A DNA stretch of 64,000 nt, from the NCBI GenBank assembly GCA_019752535.1, contig JAIEMA010000013.1, positions 1 to 64,000 of the forward strand, written 5' to 3'. A program made the position numbers and the translations under genes. A model generated the notes under the pieces. It was not told the DNA's origin. It ran no database searches and worked only from the letters and a program-made list of their open reading frames with translations. Within the stretch, counting starts at the first letter, position 1. Each line of letters opens with the position of its first letter. Shown here piece after piece: positions 133-13,492 of the stretch. The DNA comes from Bacteriovoracaceae bacterium. Lineage in GTDB: Bacteria > Bdellovibrionota > Bacteriovoracia > Bacteriovoracales > Bacteriovoracaceae.

Positions 133-1515
133 TCACAACTGAAAGATGAGTTTTTTGAAGTAGTTTCCTTTTTCTTCAAAATCTCTGAACACATCTGTCG
201 CATCGTTTCCAGGACAAAGCAGAATGGTGTCCCCAGTTCTACTCTTCTGATAGGCCAAAAGAACTGACTCATCAAATGATCCAACCAGGAACGTTTGGGT
301 TGCCTCGCCTAAAATGCGGTTCATGCTTTCTTTGACTTCGCCCACCAAGACCAGGCAGCGAACTTTGTCATTAATCACGCCGAAATACTTATCGTATGGA
401 AAACCCTCAAGCTCTTTACCGCCAGCGATAAGAATTACTGGCTCCTTAAAAGCTTCGAGGCTGGTTTTAAGCTCATCCATCGTTTCACTTTTTGAATCGT
501 TGTAGAACTTCACACCATTCTTCTCGACCACGAATTCTAGTCTGTGCTGAATACCGGGGAAGTTTTCAATGCAGTATTGAATCGCTGCATCTGAACACTT
601 CAATGCCTTACAAGCCGTTATCGCTGAGAGAACATTCTCACGACTATTTTGTCCCACAATTCTCATATCAGTGACTTTAAACTCTGAATGGTAATGAATG
701 TTTGAGTGGATACGCTTGTCATGGAAATGCGTACCTTGAATTTCATTAATTACACCCATACTCACAAAGCTCTTTCTCGAATACCAGAAAGTCTGAGCTT
801 GGCAGTTACGAAGAATGCTATTTCCCGCCAATTTATCAAAATTAACAACCAAGAAATCATTCGGTCCGAGTTCTCTAGCAACCTTAAGAGCTGTGTCGAG
901 GAATTCACCTGGACCCTTAAATCTTCCTGGAATTACTTTTTCTTCAAGATTTGGATAAATGGCCATGACAGGCTTAAAATTATTTACAGTTTGTAATTGA
1001 AGCGGTGAAACCTCAACAACCACATAATCCATTTCATCACGATTGGGCATCATCAAGAAATTAATGAATGGCTCTTCGCTCGTTCCTCCCACAAATACAT
1101 TCTTCTTATCTACTTTGAGAGTATAAGCAATCATGTGCGCAATTGTTGTGCGTCCATAACTTCCACAGACGGCTATGATTGGCTTTTTACAGTTAGCGTA
1201 CGCAAAAGCGAAATCGCTGTAGACTTCTCTTCCTTGCTCACGTGCTACTTTTAACTGAGGAAGATTAGGGTCTACAGAGGAAGAATAAACAACAACATCA
1301 GCTTCAATAAAATCTTCTTCGCGGTGTTCACCTAAAGTCATTGTTGGATTTGGATTTATTTTCTTTAAGCGTTTGACCTGTTTATTCAAATCAAAGATGG
1401 GCTTAATATCAGTAACTTTAATTTCGCAACCGATTTGGTTGAATAAATTGATTAAGGCGAATCCTGTTTTACCAAGGCCCACGACAAGAACTTTTTTGCC
1501 TTTATACTGTTCCAT
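133..1515 (-). CDS. murD: MurD-like UDP-MurNAc-L-Ala:D-Glu ligase, motif-degenerate
   Basis: In the family, MurD adds D-glutamate to UDP-MurNAc-L-alanine in the cytoplasm, using ATP. The 460-residue length, the N-terminal Rossmann start (VLVVGLGKTGFA), the central HRLEFV...NDSKSE block and the C-terminal FEEKGNYFK all place it in MurD. Key motifs are altered. The P-loop reads GSYGRTT with Arg122 where Lys is expected. The usual DHLDRH region reads LEEKVIPGRF, and the LSPACAS-type C-terminal motif reads LCPGNDAT. The reading frame is intact, and it sits 10 bases after mraY and just before ftsW. It is either a highly diverged but working MurD or a pseudo-enzyme with the true enzyme elsewhere. 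Orthology is fairly sure; activity is uncertain. Confidence 0.8.
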   Translation of the reverse strand: MEQYKGKKVLVVGLGKTGFALINLFNQIGCEIKVTDIKPIFDLNKQVKRLKKINPNPTMTLGEHREEDFIEADVVVYSSSVDPNLPQLKVAREQGREVYSDFAFAYANCKKPIIAVCGSYGRTTIAHMIAYTLKVDKKNVFVGGTSEEPFINFLMMPNRDEMDYVVVEVSPLQLQTVNNFKPVMAIYPNLEEKVIPGRFKGPGEFLDTALKVARELGPNDFLVVNFDKLAGNSILRNCQAQTFWYSRKSFVSMGVINEIQGTHFHDKRIHSNIHYHSEFKVTDMRIVGQNSRENVLSAITACKALKCSDAAIQYCIENFPGIQHRLEFVVEKNGVKFYNDSKSETMDELKTSLEAFKEPVILIAGGKELEGFPYDKYFGVINDKVRCLVLVGEVKESMNRILGEATQTFLVGSFDESVLLAYQKSRTGDTILLCPGNDATDVFRDFEEKGNYFKKLIFQL

Positions 1516-2627: not shown

Positions 2628-4016
2628 CTAAGTTATACCGAGAAGAGACTCTAATTGTAAAGAGCGACTACCCTTTATGAAGAGATAACTTTTTCCATGC
2701 GTGAGGTGATTCCACTCATCACCTTTAAATTTAGTGACTTCGGGGTAACAGGTTCCAGAACCTCGCCCCGCGAGATAATCAGATGCGTAGCGTCCTATAA
2801 AAACGCAATGCGCATGAGGCCACTGTTTAAGAAATTCTCCCACTTCTTTGTGATAGCGAGAAGCATTTGTGCCCAATTCATTCATATCACCAAGAACTAG
2901 CAATGAATCCGTCTCCGAAACTTTATGAGCTTGGAGCCACTCAAAGAAACCACTCACAGCTACTTTCATTGAGCTTGGATTTGCATTATATGCATCCAAG
3001 TAGATTTTCTTTCCATGGAAATCTTTCCACTCAGATCTATTGGGTGTTGGCCTAAAGAGGCTTGCGGCAGCCGTTAAAACACCGCGCTTATCGGGAAACA
3101 GACTGACTGCAATGGCCCACGCTGTCGCCATGTTCGTAAGATTATGGCTTCCTGTTAAAAATTTATTTCTTAAAATCTCATGTCCCAATACTCCATTAAT
3201 CTCAACCTCACCTTCGCTTGCAAGATAAGTCAAATCTGCCTTGGCCTTAGAGGAAAATGTTATCGTTCCATTTCTCTTGGGGAGCTTACTAAGAAAGACA
3301 TCATCCATATTTTGAAAAAACATACCTTGTGGATCCATTCCGTAATAGAGATATCCCTCTTCTTTAAAGACATTTTCTTCGGTTTCAAAAAATTCAAGAT
3401 GAGTGGCACCGATATTTGTCACCAACCCACAATCAGGATGTGAAAGATCACACAAAACTTTAATTTCACCTGGATGATTACTTCCAAGCTCAAGAACACA
3501 AACTTTTGTCTTTTCACTAATTCGAAGAAGTGTGAGTGGAACGCCGAGGTGATTATTATGATTCTTCTCAGTTGCAACGACCTCTTCTGGCATCACCGTT
3601 TTTAAAAGAAATGAAAGCATTTCTTTATGAGTTGTTTTCCCATTAGAGCCCGAGATGGCAAAGATCTTCCCCTGGTAGGATTTTTTCCATTGCTTAACAT
3701 GGGCCAGTGCGAGCTCTTGAGTAAAAGCAACCGCATCATTAACTTTTATAAAAAGAGTTGAAGGATATTTAGACTGCAGATTGATCGAAATCTTATTGTT
3801 CTCTTCACTTTCCTGGAACACAACGATGGGACATCCTTCGCTCAAAATTGAATCCAGATGATTCATCGGATTTGCTCTCTGACCAGGATAAGCAACAAAG
3901 AAAGAAGGATTTATATAAGATCGGGTATCCGCACAAATAGGGAGTTTAGTGTCAGGTATCTGCTTTGAAGCGCCCCTAAACGATGGACAACTTTCAGAAA
4001 GCTTCATATTAATCAT
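2628..4016 (-). CDS. murF: UDP-MurNAc-tripeptide:D-Ala-D-Ala ligase MurF
   Basis: Adds D-Ala-D-Ala to UDP-MurNAc-tripeptide, finishing the cytoplasmic stem peptide. The ATP site GSNGKTT is intact near residue 120, followed by EKNHNNHLGVPLTLL and ELGSNHPGEI, which are typical of MurF. A C-terminal ligase domain includes DAYNANPSSM. The 462-residue length is normal. The ATG overlaps the murE stop by four bases (ATGA), indicating translational coupling. A second Met four codons in is an alternative start. Confidence 0.95.
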   Translation of the reverse strand: MINMKLSESCPSFRGASKQIPDTKLPICADTRSYINPSFFVAYPGQRANPMNHLDSILSEGCPIVVFQESEENNKISINLQSKYPSTLFIKVNDAVAFTQELALAHVKQWKKSYQGKIFAISGSNGKTTHKEMLSFLLKTVMPEEVVATEKNHNNHLGVPLTLLRISEKTKVCVLELGSNHPGEIKVLCDLSHPDCGLVTNIGATHLEFFETEENVFKEEGYLYYGMDPQGMFFQNMDDVFLSKLPKRNGTITFSSKAKADLTYLASEGEVEINGVLGHEILRNKFLTGSHNLTNMATAWAIAVSLFPDKRGVLTAAASLFRPTPNRSEWKDFHGKKIYLDAYNANPSSMKVAVSGFFEWLQAHKVSETDSLLVLGDMNELGTNASRYHKEVGEFLKQWPHAHCVFIGRYASDYLAGRGSGTCYPEVTKFKGDEWNHLTHGKSYLFIKGSRSLQLESLLGIT

Positions 4017-5398
4017 GATTGACCCTTTGATTTTTCAGCAAACTTTTCAACTTCCTCAATATCACTATAGGAAATCTTATTCGTTCCTAAAATAATATAA
4101 TCCTCGTGACCTTTACCCGCGAGAAGCAATATCTCACCCTCTTGGAGATCACTTAAAGATTCATGAACTGCTTGTTTTCTCTCTACAATTTTAACAAATT
4201 TAACATTTTTATTTAAACCCGCAATGATGTCATCAATGATGAGGCTCGGATCCTCTGTCCTGGGATTATCACTTGTAATAATCAATTCATCAGCAAAACG
4301 AGAAGCCACTTCACCCATTAGTGGACGTTTCGTTTTATCTCTATCACCACCACAACCAAAGAGTACTTTTAATTTATCGTTCGGAAACGACTCTTTTATG
4401 GCTTTAATGATATTTTCTAAAGCATCTGGTGTGTGGGCAAAGTCGACTATGGCTTTCCTCTTATTCCATTCTTTAATAAAGAATCTTCCTGGTGGGGGAA
4501 GTAACTCTTCAAAACGAATTAATTGATCAGAGAAACCCAACTCTTTTATGATCGCAAGAGAGCAGGCGAGATTTTCCAGATTAAATTTGGATTTAAAGAA
4601 AGGTGGAAGCCTTTTTTTAATTTCTTCTTTAATGTCATCTGCAGGAAATACATTTTTGTATTTTGAGAGTTTTTTTAGAATTTCATTTTGCTCAGAAGGC
4701 ACATATAATTTCCCGTCTTTGCCGAGATGACTCAGTATTAACTCTTTCGAGCGGAAATATTCATCCATTGTTTTATGATAATCCAGGTGATCTTGAGTGA
4801 AGCTTGTCCAGGCCGCAACTGAATAATTAATGTTAAACAACCTTTCTTGCTGAAGCGCATGAGAGCTCGCCTCCATCACAATAACGTCACATTTATTTCC
4901 ATGATCAAAAATAATTTTTCTTAGTTGTATGTATCCTGGTGTTGTTAAACCAATTTCCTCAATGGTCAAATTGTTTTTTCTAACCCCCAGAGTGCCGATT
5001 GAAATAGCCTCTATATTTAGTTGCCTCAATATTTGAAGTGCCAAGTCAGCTGTGGTTGTCTTTCCATTTGTTCCAGTGATTCCAACAAACTTAATTTTTT
5101 CATTTTTTGGAAAAAACTGATCACAAAGCATTTCTTGGAATGCCATCCAAAATTCATTACGTATAACCAAATATGGGCAATTCACTTCAAAGGTGGGTTT
5201 GTTGTTCAAAACCAGAAGTCCTGGTTGATGAATTTGAAGTTGAGTTTGTAATTTTTTTTGCGCCTCTGAATTCAAACCGAGTTGATACACGATTATTTTC
5301 TGATTTGAACTTTGCTCGATTCTCCAGTCTAGAGACAGGCATCCATCAATTAAAGTGGGCTCACCAATAAGAATATATTTCGTATAATCATTCTTCAT
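4013..5398 (-). CDS. murE: UDP-MurNAc-dipeptide:meso-DAP ligase MurE
   Basis: Adds the third stem-peptide residue. The P-loop GTNGKTTT is intact, DFAHTPDAL marks the C-terminal domain, FGCGGDRDKTKRP follows, and the substrate signature DNPR (SDNPRTEDP) indicates meso-diaminopimelate rather than lysine. GKGHE near the C-terminus is also canonical. The ORF track starts at a TTG at 5443. I prefer the ATG at 5398, which gives MKNDYTKYILIG and reduces the overlap with ftsI to 11 bases. Neither start has a strong ribosome site. Expected length is about 461 residues. Confidence 0.95.
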   Translation of the reverse strand: MKNDYTKYILIGEPTLIDGCLSLDWRIEQSSNQKIIVYQLGLNSEAQKKLQTQLQIHQPGLLVLNNKPTFEVNCPYLVIRNEFWMAFQEMLCDQFFPKNEKIKFVGITGTNGKTTTADLALQILRQLNIEAISIGTLGVRKNNLTIEEIGLTTPGYIQLRKIIFDHGNKCDVIVMEASSHALQQERLFNINYSVAAWTSFTQDHLDYHKTMDEYFRSKELILSHLGKDGKLYVPSEQNEILKKLSKYKNVFPADDIKEEIKKRLPPFFKSKFNLENLACSLAIIKELGFSDQLIRFEELLPPPGRFFIKEWNKRKAIVDFAHTPDALENIIKAIKESFPNDKLKVLFGCGGDRDKTKRPLMGEVASRFADELIITSDNPRTEDPSLIIDDIIAGLNKNVKFVKIVERKQAVHESLSDLQEGEILLLAGKGHEDYIILGTNKISYSDIEEVEKFAEKSKGQS

Positions 5399-7313
5399 GC
5401 GAAGGTGGGTGAAACTGAAGTCTAATTTCTTTAGCCTCTGCAATTGACTCGCCTGCGGATGGTGTTTGTTTCGTCACAATACCAAAACCCGTGAGCTCAA
5501 TTTGTAGACGTAATTTTTCGGCCAACTCTATAGCTGAAGCTTTATCCATTCCTATAAAATTAGGCATTCTTCCCGAAGCAACACTTCTTCTCGTGTTAGA
5601 GGATTGCGCCATTGTGACAGAATCCAGATTCTTCTCATTAGATTCGGGATTATAGTGAGCAAACTTTGAGAAATCTTTTTTCTTATATAAAAGATATTGC
5701 GTAATTTTTTTGAATACTGGGGCCGCGGCAACACCACCATAATAGCCATTAGCCTTTGGGTTATCGACATAAACCAAGACCACAAATCTCTTATTCACAT
5801 TGACTGGAAAACCCGCAAAGCTCGCAATATATCCGTCATAGCCACCTTTAGGAGAAACTCTCTGTGCGGTACCCGTTTTACCAGCGATTGCATAATGGGG
5901 GATTTTAGCACTTGTACCAGTTCCGTCCTCAACCGCTTTATAGAGCATTGCTGTCATTTGTTCTGAAGTCTTCTGACTGATTACCCTGTTCTCTGGAACT
6001 ATCTGACTCTCTTCAGACTTAATAAATGTTGGATTAATTAAATATCCTCCATTTGCAAAAGCCGCATAAGCTCTTAGCATCTGAATCCCAGTCGTTGCTA
6101 CTCCGTGGCCAAAACTTATATTGGATAATCTTAACGGCTTAACCTCTTTAGCATTGGTCATAATGCCTTTTGATTCTCCAGCGTATTCAATTCCAGTTTT
6201 CTCTCCCACACCCAATTTTTGTAATGTGGATTGAAGCTTGGGAAACTTCATATCAAATGCGATCTTTGTGGTGCCTACATTTGACGAATACTTTAAAATT
6301 TCACTTACGGTAAGCCATTCAAACTTATGCTTGTGATCATTCTCAGCCTCACTAATTGTGTGGTTTTGCACTCGCATTTTTCCAAATTCACAAAAATATT
6401 TCTTATTAGGTGTAGCAACATTATTTTCAATAGCTGCTGCGATAGTGAGAGATTTGAAAATTGAGCCAGGCTCGAAGGGATCAGTGACAAATGCCAGTTT
6501 TCTATTTTCCACTGGTGATTGTTGAATTTCGTTGGGATCAAATGAGGGCCAATTCGCCATCGCAAGGATTTCTCCCGTTTCGACATCCATAACTCCAGCA
6601 CCGCCACGCAAAGCCTTGTGATGAAGGACTGCTTCTTTTAAGTATCTCTCTGTTACTGCTTGAAGCTCTTTATCAACAGAAAGCACGATGTCTTGAGCTG
6701 GGGCCGCAGTTGTTTCAATTTGCTCATATTTAACAGGTCTGCCTTTCGCGTCACGATGATATCTTACTAACTGAGCTTCACCCCTAAGCTCTTTGTTTTT
6801 TATTCTTTCAATTCCTGCCATACCGACATTATCAATACCGGTGAATCCTAGAATTTGTGAGGAGAGCTCATGATTCGGATAGACACGAGTGCTATGCTCT
6901 TCAAGGTGTATGACATCAAGTTTTTTAATTTTTTTCACTTGAACATCATCGAGCCTTACTCTTCTTGCAAGCCAAGTGTATTTGCTTCTATTTTTTACTT
7001 TTGACCAGAGACTTGTATAGCTCAATTCAGGAACAATTTTAGAGAGTTCTTTAATTTGATTTTGAAAGCCTGGCCCTTTCTTTTTTGGAAAAGTATAGAG
7101 ATTCCATGTTTGAACATTAATCGCCAAAGGATTGCCGTCTCTATCAGTGATGCTTCCTCGATTAGGATATTCACGAGTCTCCCTCATGAATTGACTTCTT
7201 GCATAGGCAAGCAATCTGTCTTTTTGAACTACCTGAACATAAAATGCTTTAGTGGCAACTAAGCCAAAGAGTATGAGGAATACAAAAAAAGTTGATTGAA
7301 TTCTAATTTTCAC
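5388..7313 (-). CDS. ftsI: Septal peptidoglycan transpeptidase FtsI (PBP3) with PASTA tail
   Basis: Cross-links septal peptidoglycan in the periplasm. A GTG start gives a short cytoplasmic tail and one N-terminal membrane helix (FFVFLILFGLVATKAFYVQVV). A PBP dimerisation domain and a transpeptidase domain follow, with the active-site serine in GSIFKS, SSN in YSSNVG and KTG in AGKTGTAQ. The last ~60 residues (MPNFIGMDKASAIELAEK...) form one PASTA domain, which is seen in some but not all FtsI proteins. A GGGGG run lies just before the GTG. The gene overlaps murE by 11 bases and follows ftsL by 30. Confidence 0.95.
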   Translation of the reverse strand: MKIRIQSTFFVFLILFGLVATKAFYVQVVQKDRLLAYARSQFMRETREYPNRGSITDRDGNPLAINVQTWNLYTFPKKKGPGFQNQIKELSKIVPELSYTSLWSKVKNRSKYTWLARRVRLDDVQVKKIKKLDVIHLEEHSTRVYPNHELSSQILGFTGIDNVGMAGIERIKNKELRGEAQLVRYHRDAKGRPVKYEQIETTAAPAQDIVLSVDKELQAVTERYLKEAVLHHKALRGGAGVMDVETGEILAMANWPSFDPNEIQQSPVENRKLAFVTDPFEPGSIFKSLTIAAAIENNVATPNKKYFCEFGKMRVQNHTISEAENDHKHKFEWLTVSEILKYSSNVGTTKIAFDMKFPKLQSTLQKLGVGEKTGIEYAGESKGIMTNAKEVKPLRLSNISFGHGVATTGIQMLRAYAAFANGGYLINPTFIKSEESQIVPENRVISQKTSEQMTAMLYKAVEDGTGTSAKIPHYAIAGKTGTAQRVSPKGGYDGYIASFAGFPVNVNKRFVVLVYVDNPKANGYYGGVAAAPVFKKITQYLLYKKKDFSKFAHYNPESNEKNLDSVTMAQSSNTRRSVASGRMPNFIGMDKASAIELAEKLRLQIELTGFGIVTKQTPSAGESIAEAKEIRLQFHPPSHEE

Positions 7314-11891: not shown

Positions 11892-13492
11892 AGCTTTTGA
11901 TCCTTTAAAATGACTTTATCCACTTTTGCATTAAACAAGCGCTCCGCTTCTTTAACAAAGGGATCATTTAAAATTTTTCCCCGACGATCTTCTAATTCAC
12001 TTTGTTGCTTTCTCATTTCTCGCTGATGAACAGTAGAGAAGCCAGTTCTCTCCATCTCCTCAGCTGTTACTTTTTCATACTTAATATTAATTTTAGTTTC
12101 TTCAACGCCATAAAACTTTGCAGCGTAATGACGAAGCTTTGGGGCCACTTCTAAGTCTTGAAGGTAATCCATTGGCATGCTTTCTTCTTCGGGAAAGCCA
12201 ATCGTTAAATAGACTGTACCCTCAACAAGCTCAGGCTTTTTTAAGAAATCACCTAACTCTAGGTTTGCCTTAATCGTTGGAGCATCACTCATTGCTTCGA
12301 TCAACATCTCAATTTTTGGACTTAATTCTTTAGGCTTTGAAACAACTTTGGCTGGCGCAATCTTAACTGATGGCTTTTCATTTTTAATAACAGCTCTATC
12401 CGGAGAGAGCATTTGTCTTCTTCTCGCTAATTTTTGCAAAACGAGATCGACCACCTTCTCAGGAGCAGGACTAGAAAGGGCCCAGCCACAATCTTTAGTG
12501 AAGGTTTCATATATCCAAAATAATTCTGAGTAGGTAATACCCGAGAGCGCATTTTCCGGAAGTAGATTTTCTTGATAAACTTCTGCAGAGTTATCAATCT
12601 TCTGGATAATTGAATAAAACGACTCAAGCATCTGATCGATGATTCTTTTAAGTTCAATATTTTCTTGAAGAAGATTTTGAAAAAGAGCCGAAGTTTCACT
12701 TGGGTTTTCACATAAGATAAATCCTATCAAATCTCTAATTGCACCAGTTTTCGCTAACCCGAGAGATTGATAAAAAACCGACTCGCTAATAGAATTCTCA
12801 CCCGCAAGACTCAACACTTGATCAAACAAGGATAATGTATCTCGAACTGAACCCTTGCCGTATTCTGCTAACTTTAAAACAAGAGAAGGATCCGTAAAAA
12901 CAATCTTCTCTTGGTCAGCGATAAATCTTATATGCTTAGCCAAAACATCAAGAGTGACATTCTTAAAATCAAATCGCTGGCATCTTGAAAGCACTGTACC
13001 CAATAGCTTATGGGCATCAGTTGTCGCAAAGACAAACAATGCGTGCGCTGGTGGCTCTTCAAGAGTTTTTAAGAGTGCATTGAAAGCTGCCGTTGAGAGC
13101 ATGTGCACTTCATCGATAACGTAAAGCTTATAAGCACCGCGAGCTGGTAGGTATCTTACGTTTTCAATAAGTTCGCGAATATTGTCGACGCTATTATTTG
13201 AGGCTCCATCGATTTCTAAATAATCGAGAGAATTTCCCGCTTCAATATCTTTGCATGAAATACATTGAAGACATGGGTTCATGTCGCTTGATCTATTTTC
13301 ACATCGAATAGCTTTCGCAAAGAGACGTGCGATAGATGTCTTTCCAACTCCTCGCGTACCTGTAAATAGATAGGCGTGAGCTAGTTTTCCAGATTTAAGT
13401 GAGTTCTGCAGAGAGCGCGTAACATGCTCTTGGCCAACCACTTCTTCGAAACGTTTAGGTCGCCATTTTCTGGCAAGGACCTGATATGACAT
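11888..13492 (-). CDS. dnaX: DNA polymerase III clamp-loader subunit DnaX (tau/gamma)
   Basis: AAA+ ATPase that loads the sliding clamp and couples polymerase to helicase. Walker A GTRGVGKTS is near residue 45, followed by a zinc module (CENRSS...CLQCISC), Walker B VIDEVHMLS, and sensor 1 region FVFATTDAHKL. The C-terminal third (residues ~340-534) is the diverged tau region. GGAG four bases before the ATG fixes the start. Codons 418-419 are AAA AAG within an A-AAA-AAG heptamer that could give a ~420-residue gamma form (separate entry). A good promoter lies upstream. Confidence 0.97.
   Translation of the reverse strand: MSYQVLARKWRPKRFEEVVGQEHVTRSLQNSLKSGKLAHAYLFTGTRGVGKTSIARLFAKAIRCENRSSDMNPCLQCISCKDIEAGNSLDYLEIDGASNNSVDNIRELIENVRYLPARGAYKLYVIDEVHMLSTAAFNALLKTLEEPPAHALFVFATTDAHKLLGTVLSRCQRFDFKNVTLDVLAKHIRFIADQEKIVFTDPSLVLKLAEYGKGSVRDTLSLFDQVLSLAGENSISESVFYQSLGLAKTGAIRDLIGFILCENPSETSALFQNLLQENIELKRIIDQMLESFYSIIQKIDNSAEVYQENLLPENALSGITYSELFWIYETFTKDCGWALSSPAPEKVVDLVLQKLARRRQMLSPDRAVIKNEKPSVKIAPAKVVSKPKELSPKIEMLIEAMSDAPTIKANLELGDFLKKPELVEGTVYLTIGFPEEESMPMDYLQDLEVAPKLRHYAAKFYGVEETKINIKYEKVTAEEMERTGFSTVHQREMRKQQSELEDRRGKILNDPFVKEAERLFNAKVDKVILKDQKL
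12231..12242 (-). other. Candidate programmed -1 frameshift site in dnaX
   Basis: The minus strand reads TTA AAA AAG CCT GA within dnaX. The heptamer A-AAA-AAG is in the same register as the E. coli dnaX slippery site. A one-base backward slip gives AAA AAA GCC TGA, a stop one codon later, so the short product would be ~420 residues (E. coli gamma is 431). A Shine-Dalgarno-like AGGTGA lies 6 bases upstream, as in stimulated sites. I see no strong downstream hairpin. Confidence 0.65.

Follow-up and report, generated by a model that had tools for sequence, protein, structure and literature searches.

A conserved MurD homologue in the dcw cluster of Bacteriovoracaceae, predicted to be a non-catalytic pseudo-ligase

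The dcw cluster of Bacteriovoracaceae contains a MurD homologue, here called MurD*, that is predicted to be non-catalytic. Our preferred reading, to which we assign a probability of about 0.62, is that a second MurD encoded elsewhere in the genome (MurD2) adds D-glutamate and that MurD*, a conserved pseudo-ligase, scaffolds or regulates the synthesis of precursors. MurC to MurF are textbook essential enzymes and drug targets that are judged by catalysis alone. The non-catalytic nature of MurD* is well supported at the level of sequence, and from there we infer a scaffolding or regulatory role, the binding of ligands, and partners for the protein.

The stretch of DNA analyzed here (the window) comprises 64,000 nucleotides of a Bacteriovoracaceae genome, and its dcw cluster is encoded on the minus strand in the order rsmH/mraW, an ftsL-like gene, ftsI, murE, murF, mraY, murD*, and (ftsW). 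The murD* gene (133 to 1515) starts with ATG, contains zero internal stops, and encodes 460 residues. Directly upstream lies an ordinary mraY (1526 to 2602), preceded by canonical murF (2628 to 4016) and murE (4013 to 5443) genes and by ftsI (5388 to 7313), a PBP3-like transpeptidase identified by sequence and gene order. Beyond murD*, positions 1 to 81 hold the first 27 codons (MKTDTGLEKTGNYFLL...) of a gene that is cut by the contig end and is taken to be ftsW by synteny with relatives, as ftsW lies 3' of murD* in the related locus L139. An initial annotation of this DNA had described an open frame with canonical MurE, MurF, and MraY alongside, and the stop-free frame and three ordinary neighbors agree with that description. 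MurD* is a full-length, three-domain MurD homologue with matches to each of a MurD's three Pfam domains, and its full-length match to the NCBIfam MurD equivalog TIGR01087 scores 246.5 bits against a cut-off of 211.95. Passing this curated cut-off makes MurD* an annotation trap, as the protein would be named MurD in these predators.

The residues that MurD* has lost are best read against the known ligase site, and were counted in an alignment of 81 MurD* sequences, drawn from independent genomes, using E. coli MurD numbering. The P-loop Lys of the Mur ligases serves the triphosphate, the His serves the second Mg, and other positions serve the adenine, the ribose, and the phosphate (PMC3060825); Mg is stabilized by a carbamylated Lys (PMC4816537). 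The P-loop of the window's MurD* reads VCGSYGRTT, in which Lys115 is replaced by Arg122 (codon at 1150 to 1152, minus strand, as are all codons below), and Arg is found here in 81 of 81 sequences. None of the canonical MurDs examined (other families' dcw copies, MurD2, E. coli, and S. agalactiae) has Arg at this position. Asn138 has become Thr145 (1081 to 1083; Thr in 80/81). The ..DHxxRY.. block of canonical MurD is replaced by NLEEKVIPGRFKGPGEFLDTALK, in which V194 (934 to 936) occupies the site of the Mg-binding His183 and A209 (889 to 891) that of the carbamylated Lys198. His is present in 0 of 81 sequences, with eight different residues in its place, while Lys198 is lost in the window's branch and kept in 39/81. 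The D-Glu site (Thr321/Lys348/Ser415/Phe422) is not intact in the window's MurD*. Thr321 is replaced by E344 (484 to 486; Glu in 74/81), the Lys348 position is L369 in an uncertain stretch of the alignment and is freely variable among the 81 sequences, and Ser415 aligns with A439 (199 to 201) in LCPGNDATDVF, where canonical MurD reads LSPACASLDQF and of which Phe422 is retained. In total, 15 canonical MurD invariants are lost.

Other parts of the site are nearly untouched. Glu157 (E168, 1012 to 1014) is kept in 80/81 sequences, the adenine-site Asn271 (N294, 634 to 636) in 81/81, Asp317 and Lys319 of the nucleotide site (D340-S341-K342, 490 to 498) in 81/81, and the phosphate-site Arg302 (R325, 541 to 543) in 80/81, together with Ser159 (81/81), Gln162 (80/81), and Asp35 of the UDP site (81/81). 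By sequence, the residues of the transfer chemistry are gone and much of the nucleotide site is retained. The Arg in the P-loop, the absent DH-containing central motif, and the LCPGNDAT reading for LSPACAS had all been noticed in the initial annotation, and each is borne out. Its broader phrase, missing catalytic blocks, holds for the DH block, but the C-terminal block is altered rather than missing, and E157, S159, N271, R302, D317, and K319 remain in place.

A search of the window's genome for a second murD, which had been suggested as a check, returned one that is fully canonical. Six genes in this genome contain a Mur-ligase middle domain, namely those for MurE, MurF, MurC (whose gene adjoins murG and murB), an Mpl-like protein, MurD*, and MurD2. 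MurD2 is a protein of 446 residues encoded on contig C27, away from murD*, and has every canonical residue, including the motifs GTNGKTT and FSPAHPSFDQF, the His (LNHSERY), and the Lys that is carbamylated in MurD. It scores 329 bits with the MurD model, against 246 for MurD*, and the catalytic residues are retained in all complete MurD2 copies examined. With a threshold that excludes MurC, two MurDs were found in 33 of 36 sampled family members, and a MurD2 profile added G080, giving 34 of 36; outside this sample, G067 has a MurD2 fragment at a contig end. The MurD2 profile detected no MurD2 in two draft genomes with MurD* (G025 and G036), whose residual Mur_ligase_M matches were rejected as hidden MurD2 copies as they read like folate-ligase (FolC-type) proteins. 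The neighbors of MurD2, an opposite-strand gene and an M24-type peptidase-like gene (both named by sequence reading), recur in several genera (L229-L233), which argues that MurD2 is old in the family. The Mpl-like murein tripeptide ligase homologue (L005, 985 to 2436) falls short of the mpl equivalog cut-off (275 bits against 389); with it, the genome may recycle precursors in addition to making them de novo.

MurD* was found in 120 of the 129 family genomes searched and in all 73 of good quality, always as stop-free matches; the nine genomes without it are 66 to 88% complete. A single-genome oddity is rejected by the family-wide occurrence of the changes. The named records with MurD* are Bacteriovoracaceae (Bacteriovorax, Halobacteriovorax, and relatives), which are predatory bacteria, and K115R is also present in records that carry no MAG label (Bacteriovorax DB6_IX and BSW11_IV, and Halobacteriovorax marinus). 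In 80 of 80 named loci MurD* belongs to the dcw cluster, where its place throughout the family is between mraY and ftsW, and in Halobacteriovorax (L139) the order past murD* continues with ftsW, murC, murB, ftsA, and ftsZ. At this locus murG is absent from the 20-base gap between ftsW and murC (12672-12692), with a similar arrangement in L128-L172; murG was not detected in the cluster of many Bacteriovoracaceae, and the window's branch retains it. Two different full-length MurD* genes occur in one draft (G117; the DFXY01 records L104 and L113), which probably represents mixed strains.

The conservation of MurD* is that of a protein under tight constraint. Median pairwise identity across the family is 65% for MurD*, close to that of MraY (68%) and above those of FtsI and MurC (51% each), MurB (47%), MurE (39%), and MurF (38%), and MurD* is more conserved than the MurD2 of the same genomes in 378 of 378 genome pairs (median 65% vs 36%). 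This slow-down is specific to MurD*, since in other families' dcw clusters the ordinary MurD (44%) falls clearly below MraY (58%) and lies near MurE and MurC. The median dN/dS of MurD* is 0.033, from simple Nei-Gojobori counts on 16 pairs only. In addition, 71 positions are near-invariant in MurD* and variable in canonical MurDs, spread over the three domains as 18, 24, and 29. All MurD* sequences group in one clade on the tree (100/100), which arises within the phylum's vertically inherited dcw MurDs; its stem is long (0.79) and its inner branches are short. MurD2 forms a separate clade. Together with the new invariants, this shape is what would be expected if rapid change had given way to a new and tight constraint. 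Judging from these comparisons, MurD* is under strong purifying selection with fixed orthology. A copy that appears dead and is still more tightly conserved than the working MurD suggests a second function, either newly acquired or present all along.

An AlphaFold2 model of MurD* is confident (pLDDT 86, pTM 0.84), and its best Foldseek matches in the PDB are all MurD, with the top TM-scores to unliganded forms (7sy9, 0.77 to 0.82). Domain closure differs among MurDs, and the preference for unliganded forms is for that reason not read further. When set beside the canonical MurDs of E. coli (2jfg) and S. agalactiae (3lk7), MurD* shares full-length homology, the three domains, the predicted fold, the dcw position, and the nucleotide-site residues, but it is without the P-loop Lys, the Mg-binding His, N138, and Thr321, as well as the carbamylated Lys in the window's branch, and the 71 near-invariant positions are its own. 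The features of a pseudoenzyme thus appear to be present, in that catalytic residues are lost, the fold is predicted to be retained, and a paralogue that appears active covers the reaction, aside from the two drafts where MurD2 was not detected. A pseudoenzyme derived from a wall enzyme is a known kind of protein. Of the options raised in the initial annotation, that of a pseudo-enzyme is strongly supported by the intact MurD2, the family-wide loss of catalytic residues, and the strong purifying selection. An adaptation in how D-Glu is added, also raised there, is unneeded because MurD2 is canonical at every residue. The initial annotation named active MurDs of relatives with the same residues as a refutation. 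The comparison does not bear this out: the residues are shared by every relative within the family, but nearly all of these also have a canonical MurD2.

Taken in order, the proposed events would begin in the ancestor of Bacteriovoracaceae, where MurD2 at another chromosomal locus would have taken over D-glutamate addition. Transfer chemistry would then have been lost from the original dcw MurD (Arg for the P-loop Lys, no Mg-binding His, N138T, and an altered D-Glu site), and the changed protein would have been fixed as the conserved pseudo-ligase MurD*, most likely binding rather than catalyzing. MurD* may bind nucleotide and/or UDP-MurNAc-peptide, as it keeps the three-domain Mur fold and the residues of the adenine, ribose, and phosphate sites and of the Rossmann UDP site. 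Its role would be to scaffold or regulate the cytoplasmic precursor machinery whose genes surround murD* (MurE, MurF, MraY, FtsW, MurG, and MurC), a proposal that follows from its place between MraY and FtsW and its MraY-like constraint. Slow evolution by itself does not identify a scaffold. Very probably, to judge by its residues, MurD* is without D-Glu ligase activity; granted that, a scaffolding or regulatory role is likely, and the narrower idea that it senses nucleotide or a precursor is tentative.

The most substantial alternative, and an unlikely one, is that MurD* remains active as a ligase but with altered chemistry or on a new substrate. Arg122 would then stand in for Lys, and the changes at T321 (to Glu) and K348 would adapt the acceptor site to a compound other than D-Glu. 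This is close to the catalytically changed ligase raised in the initial annotation, which is less likely than a pseudo-enzyme. An Arg that is invariant in 81/81 sequences is not random, and its fixation, set against the wide variation at the former His site, argues for a role of its own; with E157, N271, R302, D317, and K319 retained, some chemistry could remain in MurD*. The Glu found at Thr321 in 74/81 suggests a specific new contact, and the 71 new invariants also fit a new function. However, in Mur ligases Lys115 lies at the ATP-phosphate site and His183 at the Mg site, and no member retains the His, whose position is taken by eight different residues. The loss of the carbamylated Lys in half of the sequences and the free variation at K348 are likewise unlike a working transfer site. 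That MurD* is a specific partner or activator of MurD2, forming a catalytic and regulatory pair with it rather than serving a wider Mur complex, is improbable. The co-occurrence of the two copies across the family would fit such a pair, but MurD2 evolves fast (median 36% identity), which is a poor match to a nearly frozen partner, and the two genes lie apart.

It is also conceivable, and very improbable, that MurD* still adds D-Glu with its unusual residues and that MurD2 does something else, such as recycling. The canonical dcw position and the passed TIGR01087 cut-off would be expected of such an enzyme; against this, MurD2 has the higher score (329 vs 246 bits), all of its complete copies examined keep their catalytic residues, and a separate Mpl-like protein is present in the genome for recycling. 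A decaying pseudogene or a sequencing or assembly artefact, for which only the lost catalytic motifs would speak, is contradicted by the strong purifying selection and refuted by the stop-free matches in 120 family genomes, including records that are not marked as MAGs.

For a non-catalytic MurD* there are precedents for the kind of role, though not for MurD* itself. CwlM of mycobacteria, an amidase homologue, activates MurA, and its enzymatic function is not essential (PMC4946905). As proposed for MurD*, a homologue of a wall enzyme is retained there to regulate cytoplasmic precursor synthesis without catalysis, but the fold and partner of CwlM are unrelated, and it was characterized by experiment whereas MurD* is known from sequence. 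MurG of Bordetella pertussis has been proposed as an oligomeric scaffold (PMC6420597) and is thus another protein of the Mur pathway thought to hold the cytoplasmic Mur enzymes together, although MurG is an active glycosyltransferase and MurD* appears inactive. No report of a conserved, catalytically dead dcw Mur ligase was found in the open-access literature searched, and the main text of a study of lineage-specific proteins of Bdellovibrionota predators (PMC11656739) does not mention murD. If the preferred reading of MurD* as a scaffold or regulator is true, a broken dcw MurD that is nearly frozen across a family would be a natural separation of function in which a Mur ligase matters beyond ligation, and MurD* would offer a way to find what a Mur ligase binds. 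The finding is also relevant to the question of why the dcw genes keep their order.

Similar arrangements are seen in other Bdellovibrionota families. A canonical MurD off the cluster accompanies a dcw MurD without catalytic residues in f7 (four genera; L220-L223), f17 (L264-L265), and f24 (L267), and f6, f15, and f22 also have two copies, of which the dcw one is more mildly changed. Bacteriovoracaceae (f1) thus resemble f6, f7, f17, and f24 ('GSVGKST' type) and the f15 and f22 type in having an off-cluster canonical MurD beside a changed dcw copy. Of the two MurDs of f7, the broken dcw one is again better conserved, in 6/6 pairs. Among the families sampled, those with one MurD are canonical at the lost sites. 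In f2 (L208, L209, L210, and L212), the dcw MurD carries Lys at the site of His183, Tyr at that of Lys198, and Arg at that of Lys319 (where read), and a second MurD was not found in these incomplete genomes of 1.3 to 1.7 Mb. Unlike the MurD2 of Bacteriovoracaceae, the second copies of f6, f7, f17, f24, f15, and f22 belong to other clades, and second copies form at least three groups on the tree. The dcw copies of these families have also lost different residues than MurD*, which points to repeated loss of dcw MurD catalysis, a reading that rests on this difference and not on a decisive tree test. A single origin of the degenerate dcw MurDs with f1 and f7 held together is disfavored (AU p = 0.033, post hoc), while constraints joining f1 with f17/f24 (p = 0.34) or all together (p = 0.19) are not rejected. 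It is possible, if somewhat doubtful, that the dcw MurD of Bdellovibrionota has an old second role in the wall or in division that is independent of catalysis, and that it was demoted repeatedly when a second MurD was acquired, with the gene kept in place under selection. The demotions would then have come through different residues, K115/H183 in f1, E157/K198/K319 in f7, and H183/K198/K319 in f17 and f24. Were such an old role true, the ordinary MurD of other bacteria may share a structural role. As a separate observation, one genome of f8 (G217; L274) has a second Mur-ligase-like ORF at a contig end, with the P-loop GTKGKGT and Lys319 replaced by Phe.
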